From: an uncultured Bacilli bacterium
Lineage (GTDB): Bacteria; Bacillota_I; Bacilli_A; RF39; UBA660
DNA length: 42,934 nt
Assembly (NCBI GenBank): GCA_944368815.1
Contig: CALVXD010000007.1
Span: 1-42,934, forward strand
Reading direction: 5' to 3'
The notes beneath the pieces were generated by a model. That model did no database searches and was not told where the DNA came from. It saw only the letters and a program-made list of their open reading frames with translations. Positions 1 through 31,773 of the stretch are shown here, piece by piece. A program made the translations under genes and the position numbers. How positions within the stretch are numbered: the stretch's first letter is position 1; the number at the start of each line of letters is the position of its first letter.

Positions 1-9
1 CTCCTTTCT
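1..9 (-). promoter_or_regulatory. Shine-Dalgarno-like site of a gene beyond the left edge
   Basis: Read on the minus strand these bases are AGAAAGGAG, a strong ribosome binding site pointing out of the window. They suggest another minus-strand gene starts just left of position 1, continuing the direction of the element genes. Positions 10-120 hold no gene. The only structure there is a short GCCTA/TAGGC hairpin (106-119) after the next gene's stop, without a clear T-run. Confidence 0.35.
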
Positions 10-120
10 GGGTAAGCCCATTTTTAGTTTATTATGAAATTTTATATCTATCAAGAAACTTTCTCTCACTACATATATATTTGTTTGACACTTTTAGTAA
101 CACTGCCTATTTTTAGGCAC

Positions 121-747
121 TCATAATACTTTTTTCTTATTAAAATTATCTTTAATTATCAATGACATTTTTATAATCAATATCATAAACATTATTGATG
201 TTGCATAAGGTTGTCTTGTCATTACAAAAAATAATATTGCAATTGTTTGAATAATAAGTGAAACAATATTAACTATAATTCGTATTTTCTTGTCATCTAT
301 AAAATTATATACAATTTCTACAATTCCAATTATAGATATAAAAATCAAAGTAATAAAGTATATTGTTTTTATAGTATTTCCTATATCAGTACAACTAATT
401 AAAGATACTGTATAAAATTTTTCTCCAATTTTTTGTCCATAAAGTGGTAAAAAGATAAATAAAATAATCATTATATCAAGTAATCCATATACTAAATTAT
501 TTATTTTTTCAATGTTAGAAGTATTTTCATTTTTAGCAATATCTATTATTTCTTCATTTGATAATAGTTCATCAATTGAAACATTAAATATTTTTGATAT
601 ATATTTTAATGAATCAATGCTAGGATAACCTTTCCCACTTTCCCATTTTGATACTGCAGTTCGTGATACATATAATTTTTCTGCAAATTGTTCTTGTGTT
701 AATTTATTTTTATTTCTTAATTCTTGTATTTTTTTGCTAAATTCCAT
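121..747 (-). CDS. Xre-family regulator with C-terminal membrane domain
   Basis: The protein has 208 residues. Residues 1-60 form a helix-turn-helix of the Xre/Cro type (LTQEQFAEKLYVSRTAVSKWE). The rest, from about residue 80, is mostly hydrophobic and can be read as four membrane helices. This layout is common in low-GC Gram-positives for regulators thought to sense membrane or envelope state, but the ligand and target genes are unknown. The ATG at 747 was chosen because AAGGAG lies nine bases upstream; the longer frame from a TTG at 768 would overlap that site. The stop is TGA, which supports standard code use. The polysaccharide deacetylase gene lies upstream on the same strand with a gap of about 100 bases, so joint regulation is possible but not shown. 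Confidence 0.8.
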   Translation of the reverse strand: MEFSKKIQELRNKNKLTQEQFAEKLYVSRTAVSKWESGKGYPSIDSLKYISKIFNVSIDELLSNEEIIDIAKNENTSNIEKINNLVYGLLDIMIILFIFLPLYGQKIGEKFYTVSLISCTDIGNTIKTIYFITLIFISIIGIVEIVYNFIDDKKIRIIVNIVSLIIQTIAILFFVMTRQPYATSIMFMILIIKMSLIIKDNFNKKKVL

Positions 748-854
748 AACTATATTTCTCCTTGACAACTTACTATTTATCTCTCTCTTTAAATTATATC
801 ACAAAAAAAGTAAATCTTATAAAGATCTACTTTATAAATTGTAATTTGTATTAT

Positions 855-2225
855 TTATTTGATAGAAAAATAACTTTTTTCTTTATCTAATTTAACATTT
901 TTTAAAGTAGCCATTTCTTCAACAGTTACAAAAGCATACCCCTCATTTTGTAATTTTTCCATAGCCAGCAAAGCACCATCTACAGATGTTTCATATAAAT
1001 CATGTAATAATACTATTGCACCATCATGGGCATTTTCTACTATATAATTTGCTATTCTATTTGCATCTTTATATTTCCAATCTTCTGTATCAAGATCCCA
1101 TAGAATAGTGTACATATTAGATATTGTCTTTATATTTGAGTTGATATTTCCATAAGGTGGTCTTAAATAAAGTGTTTCACTATTAACTACATTTCTTATC
1201 GCATCATTAGTCTTCTTTATTTCATTTATAACTGCATAATCATCTAGCTTTAAAAGATTTGAATGACTATAAGTATGACTACCAATCAAATTACCCATAT
1301 CATGAGCTCTTTTTAATGTATCCTTATAATCATTTACACGATCCCCTAAAACAAAAAATGTTACACGAGCATTATACTTATCTAAATTTTCCAGCAATTT
1401 ATTTGTACCAATGTAGCTTGGACCATCATCAAATGTAAATGCGATTAACTTTTTATTGCTAAATTCTTTTAAATCTCTATTTCGAGTATTTGAGATATTT
1501 TCTGTTTTACTATATTTTAAATATTCATTCTTTATTATTCCATTTAATTCACTATATGGAATTAATATTCTGACTTCACCTGCTGAATAATACGCAACTT
1601 GATATGGTGGAAATATTATTTCTAATCCATCATCTATAAAATTGAAATGCTCAAAGTTATTTGAATTACTTTCTAACCCACTTTTGACCATATCTTCATC
1701 AAATTCTAAATTATTATCATTACTATATTTCATAACATAATAGTAAGAAAGAGTTGATAATCTTTCTAGAGATTTATCGTTTGCTAAAAAATCTGTAATT
1801 GACACTATCTTATCATCATTTTTATTGTAATAATAAGATTTATCACTTCTCATATAATGATTTCCTCCTGTATATTCATAAACTGTTAAATGAACTCCTA
1901 AAATATCTTCGTTTTCACTTATTTCATAATCAGTTTTAAAATCATATTTCATTGAATTCATATTTTCTAAATCACTTATATCATTTTTAAATTCTTCTTC
2001 TTTGTTTTTTATATATTCAGTTGAATAAGCTAATAAATTTTCATTTTTTACCTTAGGATAATTAATTTCAATCGAGTAATTATCTGTTTCTTTCTTTTCA
2101 TATAAATTATTTTTAGAGTTACTAAAGCATAAGCTAAAAATTCCAATCATCAAGACTATAATCAAACTTAAAAATATTTTTCCAAATTTTGTTAATCTTC
2201 TTTTGTGAATTTTTTTATATTTCAT
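855..2225 (-). CDS. Membrane-anchored polysaccharide deacetylase (PdaC-like)
   Basis: The 456-residue protein has a short basic N-terminus, one membrane helix (about 15-34), an extracellular region resembling DUF4163/DUF3298 (about 50-240), and a C-terminal NodB domain (about 258-445). All NodB motifs are present: TFDDGP near 264-269 (metal and base Asp), SHTYSH near 316-321 (metal His pair), RPPYG near 355-359, the WDLDTEDW segment, and LLHD near 406-409 with the last catalytic His. The family removes acetyl groups from peptidoglycan or other N-acetylated polymers outside the cell. The combination with DUF3298 is that of Bacillus PdaC, linked to lysozyme resistance. The ATG at 2225 has GAGGTG ten bases upstream, so the TTG six codons earlier is rejected. 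It appears to be intact cargo on the element. Confidence 0.85.
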   Translation of the reverse strand: MKYKKIHKRRLTKFGKIFLSLIIVLMIGIFSLCFSNSKNNLYEKKETDNYSIEINYPKVKNENLLAYSTEYIKNKEEEFKNDISDLENMNSMKYDFKTDYEISENEDILGVHLTVYEYTGGNHYMRSDKSYYYNKNDDKIVSITDFLANDKSLERLSTLSYYYVMKYSNDNNLEFDEDMVKSGLESNSNNFEHFNFIDDGLEIIFPPYQVAYYSAGEVRILIPYSELNGIIKNEYLKYSKTENISNTRNRDLKEFSNKKLIAFTFDDGPSYIGTNKLLENLDKYNARVTFFVLGDRVNDYKDTLKRAHDMGNLIGSHTYSHSNLLKLDDYAVINEIKKTNDAIRNVVNSETLYLRPPYGNINSNIKTISNMYTILWDLDTEDWKYKDANRIANYIVENAHDGAIVLLHDLYETSVDGALLAMEKLQNEGYAFVTVEEMATLKNVKLDKEKSYFSIK

Positions 2226-2355
2226 ACTACAACACCTCTTCAAATTACTATTTATCTGTCTGTTTAATTATATCATACTTTTTACATATTTTTTTATTAA
2301 TATACTAATCATAAGATTACTATTTTACTAACATTTTATTTTATATAATATATCA

Positions 2356-2646
2356 TTATATATCAGAATATAATTTCTCAATTAAATCATATTCTCCTCC
2401 TAATTGAGCATATAATTCAGATATTTTATTTTCATATTCTTCTTTCTTATTGTTATATTCAATAAGTTTCTTTTTTTGAAAGAAGAAAGGTTTATTATCT
2501 TCTAAGTGGCCAATTAATGTTTGATAAGACTTTATTCTATTATCTATCATTCTTATATTTATATTTGAATCTTCAATAGCATATCTAATATTTAGTTTTA
2601 ATAATGATTTAAATAACTCATTATCATCATTTTTCTTTTTAGTCAT
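2356..2646 (-). CDS. Small charged, probably coiled-coil protein
   Basis: I do not recognise this 96-residue protein. It is rich in Lys, Glu, Asn and Ile with no membrane segment. Residues about 30-85 (IDNRIKSYQTLIGHLE, then KKKLIEYNNKKEEYENKISE) look like one or two long helices, probably a coiled coil. A strong GGAGGTG site lies just upstream of the ATG at 2646, so it is very likely translated. It is divergent from the double-Xre gene at 2765 with about 118 bases between them, and may be an element accessory or regulatory protein. No function is proposed. Confidence 0.6.
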   Translation of the reverse strand: MTKKKNDDNELFKSLLKLNIRYAIEDSNINIRMIDNRIKSYQTLIGHLEDNKPFFFQKKKLIEYNNKKEEYENKISELYAQLGGEYDLIEKLYSDI

Positions 2647-2764
2647 AATGCACCTCCAATACTTAAATATTTATTACAATTTAATTATATCACTTTTTTA
2701 ACGAATAATCTTCGGTTTCGTAGTTAAAACTAATTTTAATGGGACAATAGTATCGGTGATAGTT

Positions 2765-3214
2765 ATGTTTGATAATAATTTACGATATGCTAGAGAAGAA
2801 TTAGAAATGACACAATCTGAACTGGGTTATATATTTGGTGTATCTGATTCAGCAGTTAGATCATGGGAAACTGCTCACGATTCAATACCTTTACCTAAAC
2901 TAATTAAATTTTGTGATATGTATGATTTCTCATTAGATTTTATATGTGGTTTAATTAGAAAGAATATTACTTATGGTCATTTTAAAACTGACAAAGTTAA
3001 AATTAGTAAAAAATTAAAAGAGTTAAGAAAAAGTTTAAATCTATCTCAACAAAAATTATCTGATGATTGCAAAATATCTCAAACAACATATAGTGGTTAT
3101 GAAACAGGTCATTATCTAATTAATACAACTAATCTTTATTATATTTGTAAAACTTATAATGTTTCTATGGATTGGATTGTTGGAAGAACTAATAATCAAA
3201 AAATAGGCAAATAA
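2765..3214 (+). CDS. Double helix-turn-helix (Xre) regulator
   Basis: The 149-residue protein consists of two Xre-type helix-turn-helix domains in tandem: residues about 5-62 (MTQSELGYIFGVSDSAVRSWE) and about 80-143 (LSQQKLSDDCKISQTTYSGYE). Each ends in the typical pattern (YDFSLDFICG and YNVSMDWIVG). No sensor domain is visible. Such small repressors often control excision or transfer in mobile elements. This is the only plus-strand gene in the element part of the window and is divergent from the 2356-2646 gene, which suggests it may control the intervening promoter region. The ATG at 2765 is preferred over a GTG at 2756 because GGTGAT then serves as ribosome binding site. Confidence 0.75.
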   Translation: MFDNNLRYAREELEMTQSELGYIFGVSDSAVRSWETAHDSIPLPKLIKFCDMYDFSLDFICGLIRKNITYGHFKTDKVKISKKLKELRKSLNLSQQKLSDDCKISQTTYSGYETGHYLINTTNLYYICKTYNVSMDWIVGRTNNQKIGK

Positions 3215-3215
3215 A

Positions 3216-3258
3216 AAAAGCGAGAGTATGCTAAAAAAAATAACATATTCTCGCTTTT
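3216..3258. terminator. Bidirectional terminator between convergent genes
   Basis: AAAAGCGAGAGTATG (3216-3230) pairs with CATATTCTCGCTTTT (3244-3258), a 15-base stem with a single G-T pair. A-runs and T-runs on both sides allow use from either strand. It separates the double-Xre gene from the converging 3257-3652 gene, whose stop codon lies in the stem. Confidence 0.85.
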
Positions 3259-3652
3259 ATAATACATTTAGTGAATAACAATAATCATATACATTTAATT
3301 GTTCATTGATTTTGGTATTTATTTCTTCATTATTAAAGTCATATTGAAAGATATTAAACAGCATTTCTAATGAAAACTTTCGCTTTTCTAATAATGATAG
3401 CTCCATATACTTTGCTGAAATAAATAATAGGTTCTTATATTTAGCAAAGTTAGTTATTACATTTTTAGATTCATGATCTAGTATTAATAATACATTTTTT
3501 AGAAGTTTAATGAAGTTATTAATATCATAAATAGGTGTAAACCCTATATCTTCAAGTAGGTGTATTGCTAATCTAATCTTATCAATTCCTTTTAAATCAT
3601 CAAACATATTAACTAAATCAATAACTTTCTCGGTATTATCATCTAATAACAT
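3257..3652 (-). CDS. Hypothetical element protein, 131 residues
   Basis: I do not recognise this protein. It appears all-helical and soluble, with alternating hydrophobic and acidic segments (IDKIRLAIHLLEDIG near 23-37; INNFIKLLKNVLLILDHE near 44-61) and no known motif. The ATG at 3652 has a strong GAAAGGAGA site upstream. It follows the relaxase gene on the same strand with a 172-base gap (3653-3824) in which I see no gene and no strong promoter. It could be an accessory protein for mobilization or maintenance, but only its position suggests this. Confidence 0.6.
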   Translation of the reverse strand: MLLDDNTEKVIDLVNMFDDLKGIDKIRLAIHLLEDIGFTPIYDINNFIKLLKNVLLILDHESKNVITNFAKYKNLLFISAKYMELSLLEKRKFSLEMLFNIFQYDFNNEEINTKINEQLNVYDYCYSLNVL

Positions 3653-3824
3653 AAATATTCTCCTTTCAAATACGCCATTTAAGGCACTTTATTTAAAGAA
3701 CAGATAAGAGATTAAACCTTAACTTAAAACTCAACTATAAGCATTTAAATAGGGTATAATTTCAAATTTCTGTTTTTCTATTTATCACTCTAACAATCAA
3801 AAAAATCAAGAGTATTTTTTAAAT

Positions 3825-5117
3825 TTATCTACTTAAATCAAAATCATCTTTATCGTATTCTTCTTCATCATAATCTCTAACTCTTTCTTTATAATAATCT
3901 GGTGCTTCAACATAATCAAATAATTCATCTTGTTTAGTTGTTCCTTTAGATATTCTTACAACATCTCCCATATCAAACTCACTATTATCATAACAATCTT
4001 TAACAACATCAGCAGTTTCATCTTTAGTATAATCATTACCTCGTTGTAATAATTTTCTTAAAAATTTCTTTAATAGTTGAAATAGTTCACTTAATCTATA
4101 AATTAAACTTCTATTTTCTTGTTCTAGGTTTTGATTTTCATATTCTAGTTTACTTATTTCTTTCCTATATTTTTGATTTTCTTTTTCTAGTGATTTATAA
4201 CTATTAGCATAACTATCAACTTTATTAAATATTGTTTGTAGTTTAGGTTGCAATTCCATTACTTTTTTAGATTCATTAATAACATTATTCATACTATCAA
4301 AAGTTTCTTTTTCTAAAATAACATGTTTATTATCAAAAGGAATCTTTTTATTTGTTTTCATTTGTTCTTCAAACTCACTCATCGCTTTATCTAATCTATC
4401 ACTTTTAGCATTTAATTCGTGATTTAATTTTTTAGTAAGTTGTTTATATTCTTTTATTTTAATGTGTTTATTATCACTACCTTTAATACCTCGTTCTAGA
4501 TCATAACCTTTTTCAGTTAGACTTTTATGATACATATCTTGTAATTGTGATAGGTGTATTTTATCTCTAATATATTGTTTTTTAGATATGGTATATCTTT
4601 CAGTATTAGTTCTCTTATCCAATTTCTTAACAAGTGGAACAACAACACAATGAACATGAGGTGTTAATTCATCTAAATGGACAGTTGCATGTAAAATTTG
4701 TTCTTTTTTATAACCTAAATCTTTATAAACAAATTCCATACAAGTATCTGCCCATTCTTTTATTTGCTCTCTAGACATACCATCAAAGAAAGTATGAGTA
4801 GCAGTAAAAATTAATTCATCAGCAACACAATTTTTGGAACTATTTAACATTTCATGGTATCTTTTCTTTCTATCAGCTCGTTCAGTTTTCATTCTTTCTT
4901 CGTGTTCTTTTTTATATTCTTTTGTTAGTTTATCAAAACCTTTAGTATATTTCATATCTAGTGGAACAAGTTCTATATTATTTTTACTTAATTCTATTTT
5001 AATATCTTTATTTGATTGATAAGCTTTCTTTTCTCGCTTATTATGTGATCCTATTTGGGCTAAATCAGGTATAGTCATAATAGGTTCACTTCTAAATATT
5101 GCATAATTTAATTCCAT
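3825..5117 (-). CDS. mobV: MobV-family relaxase (Pre/Mob type)
   Basis: The 430-residue protein carries the MobV signature. An N-terminal segment (MELNYAIFRSEP...IGSHNKRE, residues 1-29) holds the conserved HNxR, and residues 147-156 read HLDELTPHVH, matching HxDExxPHxH, which binds the metal. Relaxases of this family nick the origin of transfer of small mobilizable plasmids and elements and begin single-strand transfer, normally relying on another element's secretion channel. Residues about 230-350 are rich in Glu, Lys and Leu and look like a coiled coil, as in other family members. The C-terminal 80 residues are acidic. The ATG at 5117 follows a GAAAGGAG site. An origin of transfer is expected near the 5' end, but I could not identify one with confidence. 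Confidence 0.92.
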   Translation of the reverse strand: MELNYAIFRSEPIMTIPDLAQIGSHNKREKKAYQSNKDIKIELSKNNIELVPLDMKYTKGFDKLTKEYKKEHEERMKTERADRKKRYHEMLNSSKNCVADELIFTATHTFFDGMSREQIKEWADTCMEFVYKDLGYKKEQILHATVHLDELTPHVHCVVVPLVKKLDKRTNTERYTISKKQYIRDKIHLSQLQDMYHKSLTEKGYDLERGIKGSDNKHIKIKEYKQLTKKLNHELNAKSDRLDKAMSEFEEQMKTNKKIPFDNKHVILEKETFDSMNNVINESKKVMELQPKLQTIFNKVDSYANSYKSLEKENQKYRKEISKLEYENQNLEQENRSLIYRLSELFQLLKKFLRKLLQRGNDYTKDETADVVKDCYDNSEFDMGDVVRISKGTTKQDELFDYVEAPDYYKERVRDYDEEEYDKDDFDLSR

Positions 5118-5145
5118 ATATCATTTCTCCTTTCTTTTTAAACAA

Positions 5146-5173
5146 CAAAAAAGATATGTCGTTAAACATACCT
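5146..5173 (-). terminator. Terminator between the endonuclease III-like gene and mobV
   Basis: On the minus strand AGGTATGT pairs with ACATATCT across a six-base loop, followed by TTTTTT. It directly follows the stop of the 5183-6166 gene and precedes the relaxase start. A hairpin just upstream of a relaxase could instead be part of an origin of transfer; the T-run favours a terminator. Confidence 0.6.
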
Positions 5174-5182
5174 TTAATTACA

Positions 5183-6166
5183 TTAATCATCATATCTCTT
5201 GTTATAATGACAATAATTTCTTATCTTACATTTCTCGCAGTTAGGGTGTTCTCCACAAATGTTAGCAGATCTTAATAAACAAAATTGTTGGATTATTGAT
5301 TCTACGATTATCTCATCACAGTTATTTAATTCAGCAATCTTTTTTATAATATTTAATACTTGTTGTTCAGTAGCATTAGCATTTTCAACAATTCCTAGTC
5401 TATGACTACCAAATAATCTTTCTAATTGAGAACTCTTTTTGCAAGTATTAACTCCAACTCTTTTTAAATAATCATAAGCAAAAGCTCGTCCAACTTGTAT
5501 TAATTTATATTTACCACTGTTAAACATATTTGCTATGTCATTAGGTTTTTCTTTACTTACAAACTTATCTAAACTTCCATAATCTTTTTCTATTTGTTCT
5601 AATACCATTATATTTTTAGATAATGCTTTCATTTGATAACTAATCATTGGGTTAGTGCAATGAATCTTCCTTAACTTATTAACTAAAACACTTGGTTCAA
5701 CAACTTTTAAATAATTCTTATTATAATTATGAAATATTTCATCAATAGCATCCATATTTTCCCTAATATTATTATCTCCCCATCTATGATTAGAAAGTAG
5801 AGCAATTATTAATGCCTTTAAATGTTCTTCAAAAGAATATTTTTTACCTTTCTTTCTTGATTTAACATTATTAACTAAATCTTTAATATCTCTCATATAA
5901 TCGTAATTGATTTTTTCCATACTTTCTTTTATAAGAGGGTATATATCTTTTAAATCATTATCATCTAATAAAGTAATATTTTTAACCATTTCATAGTTAG
6001 GATTATATATTTCTTCCTTATCAATACAATTCTTTAATACATCTATAACTTCTGCATTAGATAAATACTTTACTTTCTCAATAGGAAATACAACTTTATT
6101 TACCTTAACATATTTTATCAGCAAAGGAATTAATTCACTATTTTTAAAAATTTCCTTATTTTCCAT
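5183..6166 (-). CDS. Endonuclease III-like HhH/Fe-S protein, probably non-catalytic
   Basis: The 327-residue protein aligns by eye with the endonuclease III fold in its second half. A helical segment (about 115-140) resembles the family core, then comes a helix-hairpin-helix-like stretch (LIQVGRAFA, about 222-230), KKSSQLERLFG (about 243-253) in place of the catalytic-Asp helix, and a C-terminal cysteine cluster at 304, 310, 313 and 319 (C-x5-C-x2-C-x5-C). True endonuclease III uses C-x6-C-x2-C-x5-C for a [4Fe-4S] cluster, a Lys in GRKTA and an Asp in VDTH. Here the Lys position reads Ala and the Asp position reads Ser or Asn. The protein may bind DNA structure without excising bases. The N-terminal 100 residues are unrecognised. 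The ATG at 6166 with an AAAGTGAG site is preferred to a GTG at 6181. Confidence 0.65.
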   Translation of the reverse strand: MENKEIFKNSELIPLLIKYVKVNKVVFPIEKVKYLSNAEVIDVLKNCIDKEEIYNPNYEMVKNITLLDDNDLKDIYPLIKESMEKINYDYMRDIKDLVNNVKSRKKGKKYSFEEHLKALIIALLSNHRWGDNNIRENMDAIDEIFHNYNKNYLKVVEPSVLVNKLRKIHCTNPMISYQMKALSKNIMVLEQIEKDYGSLDKFVSKEKPNDIANMFNSGKYKLIQVGRAFAYDYLKRVGVNTCKKSSQLERLFGSHRLGIVENANATEQQVLNIIKKIAELNNCDEIIVESIIQQFCLLRSANICGEHPNCEKCKIRNYCHYNKRYDD

Positions 6167-6229
6167 AAAAAAATATCTCACTTTCTAAATTTTAGCCTTT
6201 AACTAATAAAGTGAAATATTGCCTTTTAT

Positions 6230-6244
6230 CCTTATTTTATAAGG
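6230..6244. repeat. Palindrome near the element end
   Basis: CCTTATTTTATAAGG is a perfect inverted repeat with six-base arms and a three-base centre, about 45 bases inside the inferred element boundary and outside any gene. It may be a recombinase accessory site or a protein-binding site. In such AT-rich sequence it could also be chance. Confidence 0.35.
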
Positions 6245-6270
6245 TATTTCTTTATTTTTATATTTGGGTA

Positions 6271-6651
6271 TCACTTATTCAACAACACCCATGGAGTCAT
6301 AACATATCTAGGACCATTTTCATCTTCATATCCTTTTGCGGCATTAATAACATAACCAACGCAATCAATCATTCTAATATTCGCACTAAAATCATCAATT
6401 TGTACTTTTGCAGCAGTAGCAGGAACAAATTTTGGTTCAGTAGTCATAATAGTTTTCCCAGCAGCAGCTTGTGGTAATTCATCTAAAGTTCTTTTTCTTT
6501 CTAATTCATCTTGAATATTTGGAATAACAAGTGTCTCCATAAATTTTCTTATAAAAGTTGATTTTCCTGTTCTAACTGCACCAACAACTCCTAAATATAT
6601 GTCTCCTCCAGTTCTTTCAGCAATACTTTTAATAACTTCTATTTTTTCCAT
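6271..6651 (-). pseudogene. spoIVA: spoIVA, 5' fragment truncated by insertion
   Basis: The first 121 residues match SpoIVA, the mother-cell ATPase that forms the basement layer of the spore coat. It has the N-terminal segment (IAERTGGDIYLGVVG), the P-loop GAVRTGKS at 24-31, the DELPQAAAGKTIMTTEPKF stretch, the DCVGY motif and GYEDENGPR. After Trp121 (codon 6291-6289) the homology stops and five unrelated codons lead to a TGA at 6271. The family is about 490 residues long, so roughly three quarters are missing, including the rest of the ATPase domain and the C-terminal polymerization and SpoVM-binding part. The start at 6651 follows a GAAAGAGG site. The gene is either dead or restored by excision of the element, as known for other sporulation genes; the window cannot decide this. 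Confidence 0.85.
6285..6291. other. Junction of the mobile element with spoIVA
   Basis: spoIVA-derived sequence (minus strand ATGACTCCATGG, 6300-6289) ends here. To the left the sequence is unrelated to SpoIVA. The exact crossover could lie a few bases either way because only the right junction is visible. The left copy is needed to define the core. Confidence 0.6.
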
Positions 6652-6683
6652 ATTATACCTCTTCTTTCTTTTTATTCACTAAA

Positions 6684-6712
6684 ATATTATGTAAATAATT
6701 ATACAAATATGA
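6684..6712 (-). promoter_or_regulatory. Sigma-E-like promoter of spoIVA
   Basis: On the minus strand TCATATT (6712-6706) is followed after 14 bases by CATAATAT (6691-6684), close to the Bacillus sigma-E pattern KMATATT-N14-CATACANT. It lies about 33 bases upstream of the spoIVA start. spoIVA is sigma-E dependent in Bacillus subtilis. High AT content makes chance matches likely. Confidence 0.45.
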
Positions 6713-6738
6713 AAAATATAAAAAAATATATATAAATG

Positions 6739-18735: not shown

Positions 18736-19986
18736 ATGTCTAAAATAAAAATAGAGGGTGGACACTTATTAAAAGGAGTAATTAATATAAGTGGTGCCAA
18801 AAATAGTGCAGTGGCTTTAATTCCTGCTGCTATATTATGTGATGAAGAAACAACAATAACAAATGTCCCAGAAATTTCTGATGTAGATAGTTTAGAAGAA
18901 ATATTAATGTGTTTAAATGCTGATGTAAAAAGAGATAGAAATAGTGTTACTATAAATTCTAAATATGTAGAAAATAAAGTTATTCCAGAAGAATTATCAG
19001 TAAAATTAAGAGCATCATATTATTTTATGGGGGCATTATTAGGTAAATTTCATAAAGTTGAAATGTATTTCCCAGGAGGATGTTCAATTGGGGAAAGACC
19101 AATAGATTTACATTTAAAAGGATTTGAAAAACTAGGGGCCACTATTAGTGAAGTAGGAAATTATATTAAAATAGAAGCAGAAGAGCTAAAAGGAAACAAA
19201 ATATATTTAGATATTCCTAGTGTTGGAGCAACTATAAATATAATGTTAGCTGCTGTAAGAGCAAAAGGAAAAACTACTATAGAGAATGCTGCTCAAGAAC
19301 CAGAAATAGTAAATGTAGCTACTTATTTAAATAATATGGGTGCTAAAATAACTGGAGCAGGTACTAGTATTATTAAAATAGAAGGAGTAAACACTTTAAA
19401 AGGATGTTTTCATGAAGTAATACCTGATAGAATAGAAGCGGGAACATATTTAATAATTGCGGCATTATTAGGTAGTGACTTAACAATAAATAAAATAATA
19501 CCAAGTCATATAGAATCATTAATTTCTAAATTAAAAGAAGCCGGAGTAAAAATGGAAGTAGGAGAAGACTATATAACAGTAAAAGAAGTAGGAAATTATA
19601 AAGCGGTAAAAGTAAAAACTTTAGTATATCCAGGTTTTCCTACAGATTTACAACAACCATTAATACCATTTTTAACTCAATGTAATGGACTTAGCAAAGT
19701 AACAGAAACAATATGGGAAAATAGATTTCAAAATATTCCAGATACTATAAGAATGGGTGCAAATATAAAAGTTAATGAAAATAGAACTGCAATAATAAGA
19801 GGAAAAACAAAATTAACAGGATGTGATGTTAGTGCAACAGATTTAAGAGGAGGCGCTTCTATGTTAATTTGTGGACTAATTGCAGATGGTACAACAACTA
19901 TCGATAATATAAAATATATATTAAGAGGATACGATAACATTGTCGAAAAACTAAAAGAGGTTGGTGCTAAAATAGAATTAATATAA
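18736..19986 (+). CDS. murA: UDP-N-acetylglucosamine 1-carboxyvinyltransferase MurA
   Basis: The 416-residue protein is a complete MurA. Lys22-Asn23 lie in SGAKNSA, the catalytic Cys116 in PGGCSIGERPIDLHLKG, and the DLRGGASMLI segment is near 378. It transfers enolpyruvate from phosphoenolpyruvate to UDP-GlcNAc, the first committed step of peptidoglycan synthesis. The Cys (rather than Asp) at the active site predicts fosfomycin sensitivity. The ATG follows AGGAGGAAAC. In Bacillus subtilis murAA is next to spoIID. Here the SGNH gene, rpmE, the four-gene operon and rpiB intervene, but murA and the spoIID cluster remain on the same strand within about 7 kb. Confidence 0.97.
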   Translation: MSKIKIEGGHLLKGVINISGAKNSAVALIPAAILCDEETTITNVPEISDVDSLEEILMCLNADVKRDRNSVTINSKYVENKVIPEELSVKLRASYYFMGALLGKFHKVEMYFPGGCSIGERPIDLHLKGFEKLGATISEVGNYIKIEAEELKGNKIYLDIPSVGATINIMLAAVRAKGKTTIENAAQEPEIVNVATYLNNMGAKITGAGTSIIKIEGVNTLKGCFHEVIPDRIEAGTYLIIAALLGSDLTINKIIPSHIESLISKLKEAGVKMEVGEDYITVKEVGNYKAVKVKTLVYPGFPTDLQQPLIPFLTQCNGLSKVTETIWENRFQNIPDTIRMGANIKVNENRTAIIRGKTKLTGCDVSATDLRGGASMLICGLIADGTTTIDNIKYILRGYDNIVEKLKEVGAKIELI

Positions 19987-20008
19987 TATAATTTAATGAG
20001 GTAAAACT

Positions 20009-20704
20009 ATGAAAAAAATTATATCTATATTAATTCTTTTTCTATCTTGTTATTTTATATACAATTTAACTATTGATAATGAATTATTCTATCTTTCAAT
20101 TGGAGATGGTATAGCTAAAGGTATAACAGATGACGGTAATGTGTCAGAATATAATTATACAGATAGTATTAAATATTATTTAACTAGTAAAAATAAATTA
20201 AAAGGTTTTAACAACAGTTTTGTGGATAAAGATTATCGAATTACAGATTTACTTAGAATAATTAAATACAAAGAAGAAATAGTAGTTAATAATGATCATA
20301 TATCTATTAATGAATTGTTAAAAAAAGCTGATATTGTAACTATATCATTAGGTATGAATGAACTTTATTATAAAATACTTGTAGATAATAACAATATATA
20401 TAGTTATATCGATGGAATGCTTAGTGATATGGAATTATTGTTAAAAGAAGTAGATAGATATAATCATAAAAAAGTAATAGTATTAGGATATTATAATACA
20501 ACAGATAATAATAAAGATATATTTAATTATGTTAATTATAAACTTAAAAATATAGTTAATAAAAGAGGATTTGAATTTGTAGATGTAGATAAAATAATAA
20601 ATAATAATACTAATTACTTTACAAATAATACTAATTTTTATTTAAATAATGGGGGATATCAAAAAATTTCACAAATAATAGTTGAAAAAATAAATAAATA
20701 CTGA
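20009..20704 (+). CDS. SGNH-like protein with degenerate active site
   Basis: The 231-residue protein has an N-terminal hydrophobic segment (about 3-20, signal or anchor) and a fold pattern like the YpmR/GDSL family. Block I reads SIGDGIAKG where GDSxxxG is expected, so the nucleophile Ser is Gly. Block III reads SLGMNEL in place of G-x-N-D. The last block reads FYLNNGGYQKIS where the family has H-P-N-x-x-G-Y, so the catalytic His is not evident. It is therefore probably a non-catalytic, extracellular or membrane-bound member. The ATG at 20009 follows a GAGGT site, 22 bases after murA, so it is in the murA transcript. A role in envelope biogenesis is inferred only from that. Confidence 0.6.
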   Translation: MKKIISILILFLSCYFIYNLTIDNELFYLSIGDGIAKGITDDGNVSEYNYTDSIKYYLTSKNKLKGFNNSFVDKDYRITDLLRIIKYKEEIVVNNDHISINELLKKADIVTISLGMNELYYKILVDNNNIYSYIDGMLSDMELLLKEVDRYNHKKVIVLGYYNTTDNNKDIFNYVNYKLKNIVNKRGFEFVDVDKIINNNTNYFTNNTNFYLNNGGYQKISQIIVEKINKY

Positions 20705-20710
20705 TATAAT
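20682..20710 (+). promoter_or_regulatory. Promoter of rpmE
   Basis: TTGAAA (20682-20687) and TATAAT (20705-20710) are spaced by 17 bases, overlapping the end of the SGNH gene. Confidence 0.7.
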
Positions 20711-20731
20711 ATTATGCGTATTTATATTTCT

Positions 20732-20745
20732 ATGACATTTGTCAT
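20732..20745 (+). promoter_or_regulatory. Palindrome in the rpmE leader
   Basis: ATGACATTTGTCAT, with six-base arms and a two-base centre, lies between the transcription start (near 20717) and the ribosome binding site. It could be a protein operator or a small leader hairpin controlling L31. L31 leaders with autogenous control are known in several phyla, but I cannot match this one to a named class. Confidence 0.35.
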
Positions 20746-20763
20746 GGCGGAAGGAGAGATAAA

Positions 20764-20976
20764 ATGAAAGCAAATATTCATCCAAATTATGTTGAAGCTA
20801 CTGTAACATGTGCTTGTGGTAATACTTTTACAACAAAATCAACAAAAGAAAATATTAGTGTTGAAGTATGTTCTAAATGTCATCCTTTCTATACAGGAAA
20901 ACAAACTCTTGGTGGAAGAAAAGGACAAGTAGAAAAATTCAATAAGAAATATGGATTTAATCAAGAAACTAAATAA
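20764..20976 (+). CDS. rpmE: Ribosomal protein L31 (zinc-binding type)
   Basis: The 70-residue protein matches bacterial L31. The zinc-type cysteines are intact: two in VTCACGNTF (about 16-20) and two in [11 protein letters not shown] (about 37-43). Zn-type L31 binds the 50S central protuberance and in Bacillus can be replaced by a Cys-free paralogue under zinc starvation. The ATG follows GGAAGGAGAG. It has its own promoter and terminator, so it is expressed separately from murA. Confidence 0.95.
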
Positions 20977-20988
20977 GGTTTCTTTTTT
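20963..20988 (+). terminator. Terminator of rpmE
   Basis: AAGAAAC (20963-20969) pairs with GTTTCTT (20978-20984) across an eight-base loop, and Ts run to 20988. The stop codon lies in the loop. Confidence 0.75.
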
Positions 20989-20989
20989 A

Positions 20990-21018
20990 TTTACTTTAAG
21001 GTGAAAAAATGATAGAAT
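20990..21018 (+). promoter_or_regulatory. Promoter of the unknown four-gene operon
   Basis: TTTACT (20990-20995) and TAGAAT (21013-21018) are spaced by 17 bases. GGAGG and the ATG at 21041 follow. Confidence 0.55.
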
Positions 21019-21040
21019 TATAGTAGATTAGGAGGATAAA

Positions 21041-21526
21041 ATGAATAAAGAAGAACTTGATATAAATTTAATAAAGAAATATGTTTATAATGATAATTCT
21101 GTGTCAACAGAAGATAAAATGTTATTTGTTAGTTTATTTAATTTCTATAAAAAAGCAAACAGGTTAAATAGTCTTGAAAGTATAAAAAATGAATTAAATA
21201 ATTATGAATATAAAATTTATAACATTGATAATAAAAAAATGACTGAAGAAGAAAAAATACGATTAGAAATAGAAAGAATTAAAAGAGCAAAGGTTACAAA
21301 TCCTGAAGTTAAACATACAGTAGATGAAACTATAAAAGAAATTGAGGAACTTTTAAATAATAAATTATATTTTAGTGATAGTATATTACAATACATAAAG
21401 AAAAAAATAGTAGAATTACAAATTTCATTAAAGTTAGATATAACTTTTTTGCAATCAGCATATGATTTATTTTTAGAAAAATATAATAATTTAAAAATAT
21501 CAGAGTACAATATAAGATCAAAATAG
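21041..21526 (+). CDS. Unknown operon gene 1, 161-residue helical protein
   Basis: I do not recognise this protein. It appears all-helical and soluble, with a charged region (about 67-115) rich in Glu, Lys and Ile that may form a coiled coil. There is no motif, signal or membrane helix. The ATG at 21041 has a perfect AGGAGG site. The next gene starts ten bases after its stop. It is the first and shortest large member of a four-gene unit ending at 25596 with a dedicated promoter and terminator. Common bias and layout with the next two suggest a shared complex, which is an inference. Confidence 0.6.
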   Translation: MNKEELDINLIKKYVYNDNSVSTEDKMLFVSLFNFYKKANRLNSLESIKNELNNYEYKIYNIDNKKMTEEEKIRLEIERIKRAKVTNPEVKHTVDETIKEIEELLNNKLYFSDSILQYIKKKIVELQISLKLDITFLQSAYDLFLEKYNNLKISEYNIRSK

Positions 21527-21536
21527 GGGTGAATAA

Positions 21537-23507
21537 ATGAAAAACATATATGAAACACTAAGAGAATATTTAGAGTTAAAAATTAACAATTTAAAACAAG
21601 ACAAAAATCAAGATATTTTAAATTTATATGAAACAATAAAAATCTTTTTAAGTACTCCTAAAAATAAATTAAATGAGCTAGATGATAATGTTCATAAAAT
21701 TATTTGTGTAGAAATTTTAAAAGATCCAGCATTAATAAAAAATTATCGTTTGTTATGTGTTTATAGTAATTATATAGATAATCCATTTTTAAGTAATGAT
21801 CCCCAAATAATAGAAGCAAATAAATATTATAAAATAATTTTTGAAAAATTAAATAATCTTTTAAAAACTCTTGAAATTCAAGTATATAAACTAAAAAGGA
21901 AAAGTGAAGAATCACAAGCGCTAATAAGTGTTTATGAAAATTATTTAACTTTATTTGATACCAATGGTATTAAAAAAAATTTGGAATTAGAAGAATTAAA
22001 TGCTTTTTTTGAATTCCTTAAAAATTCAACTTTAGATAAAGAGGTAATATTAAATTTAATAACAGAATTTTCTAAATTTAATATTGTTTGTCAGGTAAAT
22101 AAGCAAAAATTAAAAATAAGTAGCATAATAAGAGAAATAGATATAAAAGCAAGTGAAGTAACAAAAGAAATTAGTGAAGAAGTGCCATCAACGGCGGAAT
22201 TAAAATCAGAAGGAGAAATTTTTCAGGGAAATTTAACACCAGAGGAAGAAAGAATTTTTAATAAAATTAAAGTTATTATATCAGAATTAAAAGGAGTAAC
22301 AGGGGATAGTTCTTTATTAGAACTTTTAGATGGTGAATTTACAATCAATGGTAGAAAAGAAATATATGAGGTAGCAGGACAAGATAAATGGAAATTAATA
22401 TATGACGATATAACCCAAAATTTATTGCCAAATTTAGGAAGTAATAAAGAAAGCATATTAGCAATATTTGAATATATAATTAATACTTATACTGGTAAAA
22501 AAGAAAAACAACCAGAATCCCCCAATTTAGATATAAAATATGATGATATATTGTTAAAAGAAGAAACTAGAATAAATAAGTATTTGGAATTATCGAAAAA
22601 GTCAAGATTTATATATGAAAGTTATGATGAAGATAAACAAAAACTTATTGATATAGCATATAGTTATCTACAAAAGGGAGATGAAATTGGATTAAAATCA
22701 CTTCAATTAGATATTTCACTTACGGATATTGTCTTCATGAAAAATTTAGATAAGATGAAATCATTAATAAGTGATTGGAAAATGTTAATTGGATTAACAG
22801 ATAAAGAAATTATTTCTTATGGAATAGATGAATATAAAGAAAGTATAAAAGAAACTAGTGATAGCATTGTTTCAATTTTAAACAACTTAGATGGTGATTA
22901 TGAAAAAATCAAAAGTGATGGTGTTGTAAAAACGCCAGAAGAACCAGTAGTAAATTCAAGTGATCAAGAAAATTATGTAATTTTTTTAAATGATGAAAAT
23001 GGGGTTCCAATAGTATTTGATACAATAAAAAAAATATCTGCAAATGATAATTTAGGGGATATTTGTAGAAGTATAAATAATATTGTAAATGTAAATTACT
23101 TTGAGTTTATGGAGAAATATACGACAAGTACTGTTAAACCAATTAGAGATCCACAAATGTATAAAGTAAGAAGAGGAAAGTCAAGGGTTGCATTTATTCA
23201 AGTGCCAATTTCTAGTAAAAATAGAGAGAAAATAAGTAAAAAATTTGAAAATAACAAAAGATTTAATTTAGTATTAGTGGTTGATTTTGGATTTAAATAT
23301 AGTGATTCTAAAAATCAAAGTGTGTATGATGAATTTAATCGAATATATGACATTAATATAAAACAAATAATACAAATGTTTAATTTGTTTGGTAAAGATT
23401 TTAATGATCAAAGTTTTGAAGAAGCACAGAAAATGTTACTGGATGGAATAGAAACAGTAAAAGAAATTGAAAAAGTTTCAAAAAGTAGAGAAAAGAAAGG
23501 AGTGTAA
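21537..23507 (+). CDS. Unknown operon gene 2, 656-residue protein
   Basis: This is a large soluble protein, largely helical to about residue 420, with acidic linkers near 205-235. I do not recognise it as a whole. The C-terminal part (about 485-620) looks globular. Residues about 541-595 (MYKVRRGKSRVAFIQVPI, then NLVLVVDFGFKYSDSK) resemble the strand pattern of RelE/ParE-fold proteins (Y-x-x-R-x-G-K-x-R, then hydrophobic strands). This is weak, and no antitoxin gene pairs with it. The N-terminal part has a stretch (IKIFLSTPKNKLNELDD) loosely echoed in gene 3 (LQKIVNTPKSIVDLNLEE), hinting at distant paralogy. The start at 21537 follows AGGGGTGA. Gene 3 begins two bases after its stop. Confidence 0.6.
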   Translation: MKNIYETLREYLELKINNLKQDKNQDILNLYETIKIFLSTPKNKLNELDDNVHKIICVEILKDPALIKNYRLLCVYSNYIDNPFLSNDPQIIEANKYYKIIFEKLNNLLKTLEIQVYKLKRKSEESQALISVYENYLTLFDTNGIKKNLELEELNAFFEFLKNSTLDKEVILNLITEFSKFNIVCQVNKQKLKISSIIREIDIKASEVTKEISEEVPSTAELKSEGEIFQGNLTPEEERIFNKIKVIISELKGVTGDSSLLELLDGEFTINGRKEIYEVAGQDKWKLIYDDITQNLLPNLGSNKESILAIFEYIINTYTGKKEKQPESPNLDIKYDDILLKEETRINKYLELSKKSRFIYESYDEDKQKLIDIAYSYLQKGDEIGLKSLQLDISLTDIVFMKNLDKMKSLISDWKMLIGLTDKEIISYGIDEYKESIKETSDSIVSILNNLDGDYEKIKSDGVVKTPEEPVVNSSDQENYVIFLNDENGVPIVFDTIKKISANDNLGDICRSINNIVNVNYFEFMEKYTTSTVKPIRDPQMYKVRRGKSRVAFIQVPISSKNREKISKKFENNKRFNLVLVVDFGFKYSDSKNQSVYDEFNRIYDINIKQIIQMFNLFGKDFNDQSFEEAQKMLLDGIETVKEIEKVSKSREKKGV

Positions 23508-23509
23508 TT

Positions 23510-25303
23510 ATGGAATTTGAAAAAATAATCGAAATATTAAAAAAAGAAATTGATAATATAAGTAAAAATAATCAAGAAATATCAAAGTTAGAAGTAGAAA
23601 AAAATCAATTAAAAAAATTACTAATAGAATTACAAAAAATAGTAAACACTCCTAAAAGTATAGTAGATTTAAATTTAGAAGAGTTATCAAAATATACATC
23701 AAAGATTACTGAAGAAGTAAAAGAAAAAATTAATTTTTATTGTTTTATTTTAAAAAATGCTAATGATTTAATTAGTATAACAGAAGAACAAGTTAATTAT
23801 ATTAAAAACTTAATAAGTAATATAATTAATGAACTTAATGTAAAATTAGATAAAGTAGAAAAACAAATAGGACAGAATAAAAAAACAAAAGCAATTGATG
23901 AAATAAATGAATTAATAACTAAAATTAATGGATTGAATGTTAATGATTATTTTAATGCAAAAGATATAGAAGAATTAAGAAAAATATTAGACAAATATAT
24001 TGGAACTGATTTATCGCTTGACGAATATATAGAACTGATTATTAAGATAACTAATACTTCGATTACAAATATAACTAAATGTGATGTTTCTATAATAGAA
24101 GAAAATAATGATGAATTAATAGAAGAAGTTTTAGAAGTTAATAATAATGAAGAGGATATTATAAATTTATTAAAAAAATATAACTATGATTTTAATTTAT
24201 TAAAAGATAAAAATAAAGAATTGATTTTAAAATTTGGTAATGTAAGTAATATGGATTCTATTTTGTCCGTATTACAAAAAAATAATATAAAAATTGATAT
24301 ATCTAGTAGAGAAAACCAATTTATAACATTGTTAACTATGTCAACTTTGCAGATAGTAAATACAATAATTGAAAATATAAAAATAGACAATAAAGAAGAA
24401 TCTTTAATATTAAATCAAATTTTTGATAATTATTTAGATGAAATAAGTTTATTTGTAAAAGGAAAAAGAACGTATAAGAAACCTGGAAAAGGTGGATCAC
24501 CAAGTGATAAAAAATATATGGTTGGTGGCTTTGAACACTATATAAAAAATAGAGAATTTTTATTAAATAAAGGTGTATCAAATATAAATGATCTTATGAA
24601 AAAGTGTTCATCATCTATGGTAATATCACATAATACTTTTGTATCAAAATTTAAAGCATTTGAATTATACCATATACCAACAGAAACAATTTCTTCAACA
24701 TTTAGTTGTATGAAGGCACCAGAACCATTAACTATGTTAGATCATTTTATTGAAGTTGGATGTTTTGATTATGTATTAAGTAATTTTTCTAAGGTTATAG
24801 TTAGTGATTCAATCATATATAGATTAATAAAAGCAAAACAAGAAGGATCAACTAATGCTGATTTATATAGACAATTTGACAAAAAAGTTGTATTGCCATC
24901 AATAATTACTATTGATAAATTTAATGGATATGGAATAAATAAAACAAATGGTGCAAGAGTAGTAGGTCAATATCATCCTGATTTTTCACCCAAATATAAT
25001 GAAATGCTTGGACAAGAAGATAATAATGGTCCATTAGTATTAGTATATAACAATTTCTTTATAAAGCGCCTTGAAGAAATGTGTAAAGAAGATGATTATA
25101 GATATAATTTCAATGGTGTAATTATTTCAAGGTTCAAAGTACTAAGATATTACGAAACAATGATTAAAAAATCAATTGCGGGTACTGTTGATAGTGTTAT
25201 GTATGCAGTATGTAAAGATAGCATTTTAACAGAAGAACAATATAAGACAATAAAAAATTGTGTTGATAAAATATTTAATCCAGGGAGGTCTTATAGAATA
25301 TGA
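23510..25303 (+). CDS. Unknown operon gene 3, 597-residue protein
   Basis: I do not recognise this protein. Residues 1-150 look like coiled coil, 150-315 like short helical hairpins, and 322-340 form a glycine/lysine-rich linker (KKPGKGGSPSDKK). From 345 to 597 is a more conserved-looking part with helical repeats (LLNKGVSNINDLMKKC; HFIEVGCFDYVLSNF) and a final segment (FNGVIISRFKVLRYYETMIK, about 537-556). No catalytic motif, signal or membrane helix is seen. AAAGGAGTG precedes the ATG at 23510. Its TGA stop overlaps the next start in ATGA (25300-25303). It may be the scaffold of the proposed complex. Confidence 0.6.
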   Translation: MEFEKIIEILKKEIDNISKNNQEISKLEVEKNQLKKLLIELQKIVNTPKSIVDLNLEELSKYTSKITEEVKEKINFYCFILKNANDLISITEEQVNYIKNLISNIINELNVKLDKVEKQIGQNKKTKAIDEINELITKINGLNVNDYFNAKDIEELRKILDKYIGTDLSLDEYIELIIKITNTSITNITKCDVSIIEENNDELIEEVLEVNNNEEDIINLLKKYNYDFNLLKDKNKELILKFGNVSNMDSILSVLQKNNIKIDISSRENQFITLLTMSTLQIVNTIIENIKIDNKEESLILNQIFDNYLDEISLFVKGKRTYKKPGKGGSPSDKKYMVGGFEHYIKNREFLLNKGVSNINDLMKKCSSSMVISHNTFVSKFKAFELYHIPTETISSTFSCMKAPEPLTMLDHFIEVGCFDYVLSNFSKVIVSDSIIYRLIKAKQEGSTNADLYRQFDKKVVLPSIITIDKFNGYGINKTNGARVVGQYHPDFSPKYNEMLGQEDNNGPLVLVYNNFFIKRLEEMCKEDDYRYNFNGVIISRFKVLRYYETMIKKSIAGTVDSVMYAVCKDSILTEEQYKTIKNCVDKIFNPGRSYRI

Positions 25304-25596
25304 TAGATTTTCTAAAAAAAACAAATATAAATGAAGATATATTAATTGAAATAATAAAAAATAATAATCCATCGGCATTAAGTAGTTTATCAATTAATGA
25401 AGAAGAATGTATAAAAATAATTAACTATATGAAAGAAATAGGATTAACTTGTATTGATGAATTATTAATAAATAGAATAGATTTGTTTTTAAGTTCATTT
25501 GACAAATTTATAAAAAAATTAAGTAAGTTTAATATCCCTGTATTAGTACAATTAGTTAATACAGATTATGCTACAATTGATATTATAAATGAGTAG
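25300..25596 (+). CDS. Unknown operon gene 4, 98-residue helical protein
   Basis: A small helical protein with repeating amphipathic segments (NEEECIKIINYMKEIGLTCIDELL; IDLFLSSFDKFIKKLSKFNIPVLVQLV). The spacing, with a 'GLTCIDELL'-type turn, resembles the 'GVSNINDLM' turn in gene 3, so it could be a related helical-repeat module. It starts in a four-base ATGA overlap with gene 3 and has a CAGGGAGG ribosome site, so it is well translated and coupled. A perfect terminator follows one base after its stop. Function unknown. Confidence 0.55.
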   Translation: MIDFLKKTNINEDILIEIIKNNNPSALSSLSINEEECIKIINYMKEIGLTCIDELLINRIDLFLSSFDKFIKKLSKFNIPVLVQLVNTDYATIDIINE

Positions 25597-25623
25597 AAAA
25601 GAAATTATTTAGTTTCTTTTTTT
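25597..25623 (+). terminator. Terminator of the unknown four-gene operon
   Basis: AAAAGAAA (25597-25604) pairs perfectly with TTTCTTTT (25613-25620), with further Ts following. It begins directly after the stop codon. Confidence 0.75.
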
Positions 25624-25664
25624 CTCTATATAATGATATAATAGTAATGAAAGAGGGTAAAAAA

Positions 25665-26105
25665 ATGAAAATAGGAATAGCAAATGACCATAGAGGTTAT
25701 AAGAAAAAACAATATTTGACACAATTTTTAGAAAAATTAGGGTATACTGTAATTAATTATGGTACTGATAGTGAAGAATCAGTAGATTTTCCTGATTATG
25801 CTAAAAAATTAGGAATTGCTGTTAGAGAAAAAGAAGTTGACTTAGGAATAGCAATATGTGGTACAGGAATTGGTATGAGTATAGCATTAAATAAAATGCA
25901 TGATATTACTTGTGCTAAAGTGTCTAGTGTTGCTGAAGCAATTTTGTCTAAGGCACATAATGATGCTAATGTATTAGCAATATCTGAAGAAATGGATGAT
26001 GAAACTACTAAACAAGTAGTAATTAAGTTTATAGAAACGCCATTTTCAAATGTAAAAAAATATGTAGTTAGAAATAATAAAATAAAAGTGATAGATAATG
26101 ACTAA
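25665..26105 (+). CDS. rpiB: Ribose-5-phosphate isomerase B
   Basis: The 146-residue protein belongs to the RpiB/LacAB family. Residues 1-12 hold IANDHRGYK with the substrate-binding Asp-His. GTDSEESVDFPDYA follows, and the catalytic Cys65 lies in CGTGIGMSIALNK. Family members interconvert ribose-5-phosphate and ribulose-5-phosphate, and some act on allose or galactose derivatives; single-copy RpiB near sporulation genes is usually the pentose enzyme. The ATG at 25665 follows AGAGGGTA; the frame from 25647 is rejected because it would start upstream of this site. A TATAAT at 25637-25642 may be its -10 box, with a poor -35. It overlaps the DUF1146 gene by eight bases. Confidence 0.92.
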   Translation: MKIGIANDHRGYKKKQYLTQFLEKLGYTVINYGTDSEESVDFPDYAKKLGIAVREKEVDLGIAICGTGIGMSIALNKMHDITCAKVSSVAEAILSKAHNDANVLAISEEMDDETTKQVVIKFIETPFSNVKKYVVRNNKIKVIDND

Positions 26106-26289
26106 AATTATTTTATATGTACTTATATTTCCACTTGTTATATGGAGTTTAGATAGTATAAACATTAATGGAATATTTAAAAAAAATAAAGAATATCAAG
26201 CAAGAGTATTTTATATAATTTTAGCATTTTGTATATCTTATTTATTAGTTAGTTTTTTAAGTGATTTTGTAGGAGTAATGAATTATTGA
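26098..26289 (+). CDS. ywzB: DUF1146 small membrane protein (YwzB-like)
   Basis: The 63-residue protein has two membrane helices (about 3-20 and 37-58) and the central pattern WSLDSININGIFKKN...YQARVFYI, which matches DUF1146 proteins such as YwzB. In Bacillus subtilis ywzB lies close to murAA and spoIID, and here it directly precedes spoIID, so the neighbourhood is conserved. The function of the family is unknown. It starts inside the end of rpiB in the overlap ATGACTAA, without a strong ribosome site of its own, so translation is probably coupled. Confidence 0.75.
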   Translation: MTKIILYVLIFPLVIWSLDSININGIFKKNKEYQARVFYIILAFCISYLLVSFLSDFVGVMNY

Positions 26290-26302
26290 AAAGAGGTAAA
26301 AA

Positions 26303-27933: not shown

Positions 27934-27954
27934 GCGGTATTTTTCCGCTTTTTT
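27932..27954 (+). terminator. Terminator after spoIIQ
   Basis: AAGCGG (27932-27937) pairs with CCGCTT (27945-27950) with Ts to 27954. It separates spoIIQ from spoIIID. Confidence 0.85.
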
Positions 27955-27999
27955 CACATAAACTCATAATTAATAAATATAATTTACTAGGTGAATTAT

Positions 28000-28257: not shown

Positions 28258-28301
28258 AAATGGCTAAATGTGGTAAAATAAGAACTAGGGATGGTGATTT
28301 A

Positions 28302-29294: not shown

Positions 29295-29297
29295 TTT

Positions 29298-29319
29298 GAG
29301 TAGATACTACTCTTTTTTT
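29298..29319 (+). terminator. Terminator of mbl
   Basis: GAGTAG (29298-29303) pairs with CTACTC (29307-29312) and is followed by seven Ts. Confidence 0.75.
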
Positions 29320-29325
29320 ATTTGC

Positions 29326-31709: not shown

Positions 31710-31773
31710 AGAACCGCTCCTTATATTAATAATATCATAAAAGAAAATAATCTACTAGATAAAATAAAAATAA

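Follow-up and report, generated by a model that had tools for sequence, protein, structure and literature searches.

Two mobile elements split the sporulation gene spoIVA of an uncultured Bacilli lineage and may be excised in the mother cell

Sporulation genes that are interrupted by mobile DNA, and rebuilt by its excision, have been described in several spore-forming bacteria. In Bacillus subtilis, SPbeta resides within spsM; its large serine recombinase (LSR), SprA, is made in vegetative cells, a 58-residue factor (SprB) is made from a mother-cell promoter, and excision rebuilds a gene of the mother cell (PMC4191935). The recombinase of the Clostridioides difficile skin element, within sigK, is transcribed from a sigma-A promoter (TTTAAA/TATAAT), and its directionality factor is controlled by sigma-E and SpoIIID (PMC5025042). 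The gin element of gerE in Bacillus cereus ATCC 10987 is not a phage; it uses serine recombinases and a small factor, GirX, and was recently transferred between strains (PMC5595907). Further elements occupy spoVFB (‘vfbin’), spoVR (‘vrin’) and yabG (‘yin’); spoVFB and spoVR are expressed in the mother cell, and vfbin and vrin excise during sporulation (PMC4191935, PMC5025042, PMC10747680). The subject of this report is spoIVA, as found on a 42,934-nucleotide stretch of DNA (‘the window’, the whole of contig CALVXD010000007.1, here C7) from an uncultured gut bacterium of the RF39 Bacilli (assembly GCA_944368815.1, here G000; 1.27 Mb in 71 contigs, 91.5% complete). A published survey has predicted that RF39 Bacilli are capable of sporulation with an unusual set of genes (PMC10868615). 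Two integrative elements, each inserted by its own LSR, interrupt the gene, and one of them (element A) is probably excised in the mother cell, as are skin, SPbeta and gin.

Profile searches of the genome, followed by reading of the DNA, locate spoIVA in three pieces. An open reading frame (ORF) at window positions 6271-6651, on the minus strand, matches Pfam SpoIVA_ATPase (PF09547) over profile positions 1-123 (E 1.7e-56), and the match ends at a TGG codon (6289-6291). The original prediction, made from the letters of the window, held that spoIVA is intact through codon 121 and then runs into an element with a MobV relaxase, and both parts of that claim are borne out (Mob_Pre, E 3.4e-29). The rest of the gene, which was to be sought in the same orientation, lies on contig C70 of the same genome, where 27738->27385 matches PF09547 positions 120-237 and 19732->19511 matches the spoIVA C-terminal domain (PF20439). 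A single interrupting element had been foreseen; the one at codon 121 is there, and a second (element B) lies between codons 398 and 399. The parts of the gene are these:

Window 6682..6712, minus strand: spoIVA sigma-E-like promoter, TCATATTT-N13-CATAATATT.
Window 6289..6651, minus strand: spoIVA piece 1, codons 1-121, the last of which is the TGG core.
Window 6289..6291, minus strand: crossover core TGG of attL-A, the codon of Trp-121, common to attL, attR and the uninterrupted spoIVA of relatives.
C70 27732->26891, same orientation as piece 1: spoIVA piece 2, codons 121-398.
C70 19780->19508, same orientation as piece 1: spoIVA piece 3, codons 399-489.

Short cores are shared at both cuts: TGG at Trp-121 (site 1) and CATAT at His-398/Met-399 (site 2). 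When the flanks are joined at both cores the halves prove to be in frame, giving 489 codons without a stop, and the rebuilt protein scores 697 bits over its full length against TIGR02836 (cut-off 460). No stops or frameshifts were found within the pieces. The 3' part of the gene is thus present, and the searches found no second intact spoIVA in G000; a missing 3' part or an intact second copy had been named beforehand as fatal to the idea of an intervening sequence. The sigma-E-like promoter, also part of the original prediction, follows a layout (TCATATTT/CATAATATT) whose CATA is conserved in position upstream of spoIVA in 58 of 63 sequences from the family; in G000 the CATAATATT portion stands about 40 nucleotides ahead of the ATG, and a published sigma-E promoter of spoIVA in Epulopiscium is of the same kind (TCATATCC / ACATATAGTT; PMC3416734).

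Since the source is a metagenome-assembled genome of 71 contigs, with the spoIVA pieces on two of them, an artefact of assembly or binning is the first explanation to be weighed. Against it, element A is found at site 1, at the same nucleotide, in about 35 related uncultured Bacilli genomes, with base-identical junctions that come from different studies, assemblers and hosts; in 11 of these genomes a single contig carries both halves of the gene, in matching orientation, around elements of approximately 3.5-44 kb. A chimeric junction, the third outcome named beforehand as fatal, is refuted for site 1 in general, and an artefact is so improbable that it can be set aside. The left end of the element (attL) is conserved to the base as CCNTGG followed, after 13-15 nucleotides, by GTGATACC (with one variant copy), and the right end (attR) as GGTATCAC ahead of TGG (with two variants ending in T). 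A search with the rebuilt SpoIVA protein finds the gene in 254 of 291 family genomes, mostly whole; element sequence occupies site 1 or site 2 in 21 of the 254 (approximately 8%), and contigs of three further genomes are broken exactly at the site-1 core. Two genomes, G388 and G406, have an unbroken but distant spoIVA (59% and 46%) alongside a split copy or a fragment, and may be mixed bins.

Element A extends from window position 6288 leftward to the end of the contig, and on C70 from 27733 to 35122, the end of that contig; C70 ends and C7 begins inside the element, the middle of which is unassembled. Element B covers C70 ~19781-26890 (~7.1 kb). The features that bear on the recombination of both are the following:

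C70 27804-29387, adjoining piece 2: LSR-A, a large serine recombinase of 528 residues; PF00239 (Resolvase), PF07508 (Recombinase) and PF13408 (zinc ribbon) all above cut-off.
C70 29573->29394, directly ahead of LSR-A: RDF-A, a candidate directionality factor by place and size.
Window 6267..6274, minus strand: attP arm GTGATACC, found 13-15 nucleotides past TGG in nearly all attL copies.
C70, in element B, overlapping the start of piece 3: LSR-B, of 546 residues; PF00239 and PF07508 above cut-off, PF13408 just below.

A recombinase had been expected near the junction; a serine recombinase does adjoin piece 2, at the far end of element A and on the other contig rather than beside the junction in the window. 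Among full-length homologues of solved structure, SPbeta YokA/SprA is the nearest to LSR-A. In attR on C70 a partner arm, GGTATCAC, stands ahead of TGG and forms with GTGATACC a dyad around the core; these inverted arms around TGG match the attP expected of a serine integrase. For element B, the shared core CATAT alone is established. When an alignment of LSR-A was scanned against 84,980 species, 30 homologues of at least 57% identity were found, and all 26 that have enough flanking sequence lie at spoIVA codon 121, whereas none of the 50 homologues at 40-44% identity lies there.

Every LSR-A locus examined has a small ORF (34-73 residues) that ends at or beside the start of the LSR. This ORF, present in 24 unique loci, has the consensus MYETxEFYxxNGxDLKEVLKSCIYNYYxKNK and a ratio of nonsynonymous to synonymous polymorphism (pN/pS) of 0.37, which indicates purifying selection. 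From its place and size, which recall those of SprB (58 residues), we infer that it encodes the directionality factor of element A; AlphaFold gives a single helix of low confidence (predicted local distance difference test 70, predicted template modelling score 0.38), and no sequence match to solved proteins such as SprB was obtained. A CATAnnnTT box lies 25-34 nucleotides upstream of the RDF-A start in 19 of 19 unique sequences, as against 3 of 122 control genes (Fisher P 1e-20, a value that overstates independence because the sequences are related; 0.9% in shuffles). The CATA box is the same as that of the host spoIVA promoters of the family (58/63). A second, sigma-A-like promoter is located inside the end of RDF-A, about 53 nucleotides before the LSR, and is recognizable with at most two mismatches in 13 of 23 sequences (shuffles 7%).

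Such an arrangement suggests the following course of events. Integration would be the recombination of attP with attB, with spoIVA as attB and each element using its own LSR, and the reverse reaction, between attL and attR, would rebuild spoIVA exactly. LSR-A would be made at a low level from the sigma-A-like promoter, while RDF-A, translated just ahead of LSR-A, would be made only when sigma-E or sigma-K reads the CATA-type promoter; a factor limited to the mother cell would in turn confine excision to that cell, which would make SpoIVA and then die, while the forespore would keep the element. It is on this basis that we infer excision, and its restriction to the mother cell; a corresponding switch for element B may be supposed by analogy. 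The elements do have the structural features of known sporulation gene-intervening elements, namely halves that are in frame and a recombinase of their own at the junction, and the suggestion of a sporulation-intervening sequence in spoIVA draws support from the same-orientation remainder of the gene, the serine recombinase and the full-length, in-frame restoration. The same machinery might instead serve an element that merely resides in a conserved gene dispensable for growth, leaves it at random or under stress in vegetative cells for the purpose of transfer, and allows spores to arise from cells that have lost it. The mobilizable nature of element A (with its MobV relaxase) and the sigma-A-like promoter ahead of the LSR would suit such a life; however, every RDF-LSR operon has the CATA-type promoter, which matches that of the host spoIVA, and in the two best-studied cases it is the directionality factor, and not the LSR, that carries such control (PMC4191935, PMC5025042). 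We regard excision of this uncontrolled kind as improbable.

Several assemblies hold both the joined and the split form of the site. In G002 and G191, TGG is the exact point at which the piece-1 contig stops and the piece-2 contig starts; in G141, a contig with the joined site shares exactly 141 bases, counted from TGG, with the contig of piece 2; and the end of an element contig of G390 falls exactly 77 bases past the start of TGG. Breaks of this kind are the expected trace of an assembler when the reads contain joined and split sites together. In G400 and G386, a whole, joined spoIVA is accompanied by LSR-A on a contig of its own, which stops at the core. The six assemblies show mixed sites, not excision as such, and the uncontrolled excision just described would produce mixed sites without any developmental control.

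The split state can also be read as simple inactivation, the alternative that had been named at the outset: the elements would insert by infection with spoIVA as attB, carriers would lose sporulation, and these dead ends would be refilled by horizontal transfer. Element A is approximately 99% identical between G000 and G052, a similarity not shared by spoIVA and its flanks, with a synonymous divergence (dS) of 0 in LSR-A while that of spoIVA is 0.55; G269 and G089 carry it at 96-98% identity, against only about 70% for their SpoIVA; and overall it is 96-99% identical between hosts with SpoIVA at 70-97% identity. For element B the identity is 96-98% in G192 and G173. Judged from these comparisons, both elements were recently transferred. 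A test of vertical inheritance of the split state showed that the divergences of LSR-A and spoIVA do not track one another, so that no pair of genomes proves long-term upkeep. This recent and wide transfer, the low frequency of the split (21/254) and a relative of element B in G081 with a stop in its recombinase all favour inactivation. On the other hand, the LSR-A lineage has diverged to 57% identity and yet stays on one nucleotide of spoIVA, which is hard to understand if its carriers are dead ends; the RDF-LSR operon keeps a promoter like that of spoIVA; several assemblies have the joined form beside the split one; no stops or frameshifts were found in the pieces; and SpoIVB and the sigma cascade are kept. 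In G000, spoIIGA, sigE, an unsplit sigK and a sigF/G-like gene, the last preceded by a SpoIIAA-like gene, are whole, and SpoIVB is present. SpoIVB accompanies a split spoIVA in 22 of 24 genomes and an intact one in 17 of 17, and it occurs in 3 of 12 genomes that lack spoIVA. The retained sigma cascade, SpoIVB and the undamaged pieces weaken the case for inactivation, which the apparent youth of most insertions keeps alive; we consider it unlikely, if less so than excision without developmental control.

A number of observations weigh against controlled excision of the elements. The mixed sites are no proof of excision, because mixtures of strains would look alike, and a circular form (attP) found no match in 386 family genomes (by pattern search) or in IMG/VR. 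Since the insertions are young, the undamaged state of the spoIVA pieces is weak evidence of lasting function. CATA promoters are also found ahead of sister LSRs outside obvious sporulation genes, and the box could be a habit of this recombinase clade and not an adaptation to spoIVA. No CATA or mother-cell promoter was recognized ahead of LSR-B, which is preceded by a 91-residue ORF; this absence counts because both elements must leave if G000 is to make SpoIVA. Nor was a directionality factor made in the mother cell recognized for element B. Element B is perhaps outside mother-cell control, in which case G000 might be unable to make SpoIVA at all. A relative of LSR-B at spoIVA site 2 in G081 (locus L114; C52, 370-2007) carries an in-frame TAA, and that insertion could be unable to excise. 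Finally, SpoIIIAE (PF09546) was undetectable in all 53 family genomes tested, though SpoIVB and usually SpoIVA are present; the engulfment-channel gene set of the family would appear, from its genes, to be reduced or diverged, with a correspondingly reduced sporulation predicted. With the whole family lacking it, SpoIIIAE is unusable as a marker of sporulation.

The controlled excision proposed for element A may be set beside the systems named above. With SPbeta it shares an LSR accompanied by a small factor with a mother-cell-type promoter, and SprA is the closest full-length solved homologue of its recombinase; however, SPbeta is a phage in a polysaccharide gene, whereas no phage structural gene was found in elements A and B (no PHROGs or Pfam match among the proteins searched), so that they do not count as prophages. 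The possibility that LSR-A is a known phage integrase was rejected, a scan of IMG/VR with the LSR-A alignment having given only relatives at 29-36%. The RDF-A/LSR-A pair has the same two-promoter layout as C. difficile skin, but the skin elements of C. difficile and B. subtilis are prophage-like and lie in sigK, which is unsplit in G000. In gin, the target is gerE and girC and girX are separate genes, in contrast to element A, which has factor and recombinase in one operon, plus a relaxase. Vfbin, vrin and yin are prophage-like and occur one per gene, none of them in spoIVA. The original prediction named no described case in spoIVA, and a literature search, mostly without subscription papers, likewise found no report of an intervening element, excision or recombinase in that gene. 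What is new is spoIVA as a target, the joint occupation of two independent sites within one gene, a carrier that is mobilizable and not a phage, and how widely it has spread.

If excision occurs as proposed, a central morphogenetic gene would be added to the few known to be rebuilt by programmed DNA excision, one gene providing two sites and about 35 natural examples at base resolution, and its carriers would be transferable, non-phage elements in a group whose spore formation is only predicted (PMC10868615). The element would then offer a test of sporulation in uncultured bacteria, in which joined-site reads would mark mother cells, and would support the idea that mobile DNA survives parked in genes needed only by a cell without descendants.

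Other genes show apparently similar breaks. The D,D-carboxypeptidase gene (PF00768) of G000 is in three pieces (C20:13992-14279, C67:60-356 and C30:13355-13495; loci L138, L137 and L139), and a 564-residue LSR (C67:319-2013) overlaps the start of the middle one; it is apparently a second doubly interrupted gene in this genome. Sister recombinases, 40-44% identical to LSR-A, adjoin the 3' part of a LysM-repeat gene at 12 loci (L191, L194, L198, L202, L203, L205, L206, L212, L213, L214, L215 and L218), and in most cases a comparable small ORF and a promoter of the CATA type precede the recombinase. The LysM-repeat gene of L214 matches the SafA family, and a SpoIID-like gene follows in L212, L214 and L215; this is probably another interrupted spore-envelope gene. 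A broader and more tentative proposal, to which we give somewhat less than even credence, is that a fast-moving family of non-phage elements in these gut Bacilli specializes in mother-cell genes, that spoIVA, with two independent sites open to occupation at once, has to be spliced twice at the DNA level in the mother cell for a spore to form, that sister recombinases act likewise on SafA-like LysM and D,D-carboxypeptidase genes, and that excision, borne by horizontally transferred elements, serves as a lineage-wide control of sporulation.

The remaining content of element A, whose left part (window 1..6288) belongs to a region with 99.4% identity to G052 over positions 1-6721 and 97.9% to G269 over 2241-6652, is as follows:

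Window 5183..6181, minus strand: 332-residue protein of unassigned function, with a C-terminal cysteine cluster that resembles, by eye, iron-sulphur (FeS) DNA glycosylases; no Pfam or PHROG match.
Window 3825..5117, minus strand: MobV-type relaxase (Mob_Pre, PF01076).
Window 3257..3652, minus strand: 131-residue protein; no Pfam or PHROG match.
Window 2756..3214, plus strand: double helix-turn-helix (HTH) regulator (HTH_3, two stretches), a possible repressor of the element.
Window 2356..2646, minus strand: 96-residue protein; no Pfam or PHROG match.
Window 855..2243, minus strand: PdaC-like polysaccharide deacetylase (PF01522, PF11738, PF13739), cargo.
Window 121..768, minus strand: HTH regulator (HTH_3) with a membrane part, cargo.

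Element A also encodes a PAP2 protein, an IS110 transposase and an HTH protein that resembles replication initiators. No end overlap was found between C70 and C7, or between the two contigs of G052; the gap lies beside the IS110 transposase and the apparent start of an ABC-transporter gene. The element combines an integrase with a relaxase, and its assembled parts, from which the middle is missing, showed no transfer genes; it qualifies as an integrative and mobilizable element. It resembles other members of that class in its integrase, relaxase, regulator, cargo and horizontal spread, and differs from them in that the spoIVA elements target a developmental gene and that the excision operon of element A has a mother-cell-type promoter. 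The PdaC-like cargo might alter the envelope of the host. Besides LSR-B, element B encodes a small resolvase, a macro-domain protein, an HTH regulator and unassigned ORFs. The smallest element A (L146, a whole contig of 3496 bp) measures 3,323 bp between its cores and holds only a 344-residue ORF (Fic-like, by eye), RDF-A and LSR-A.

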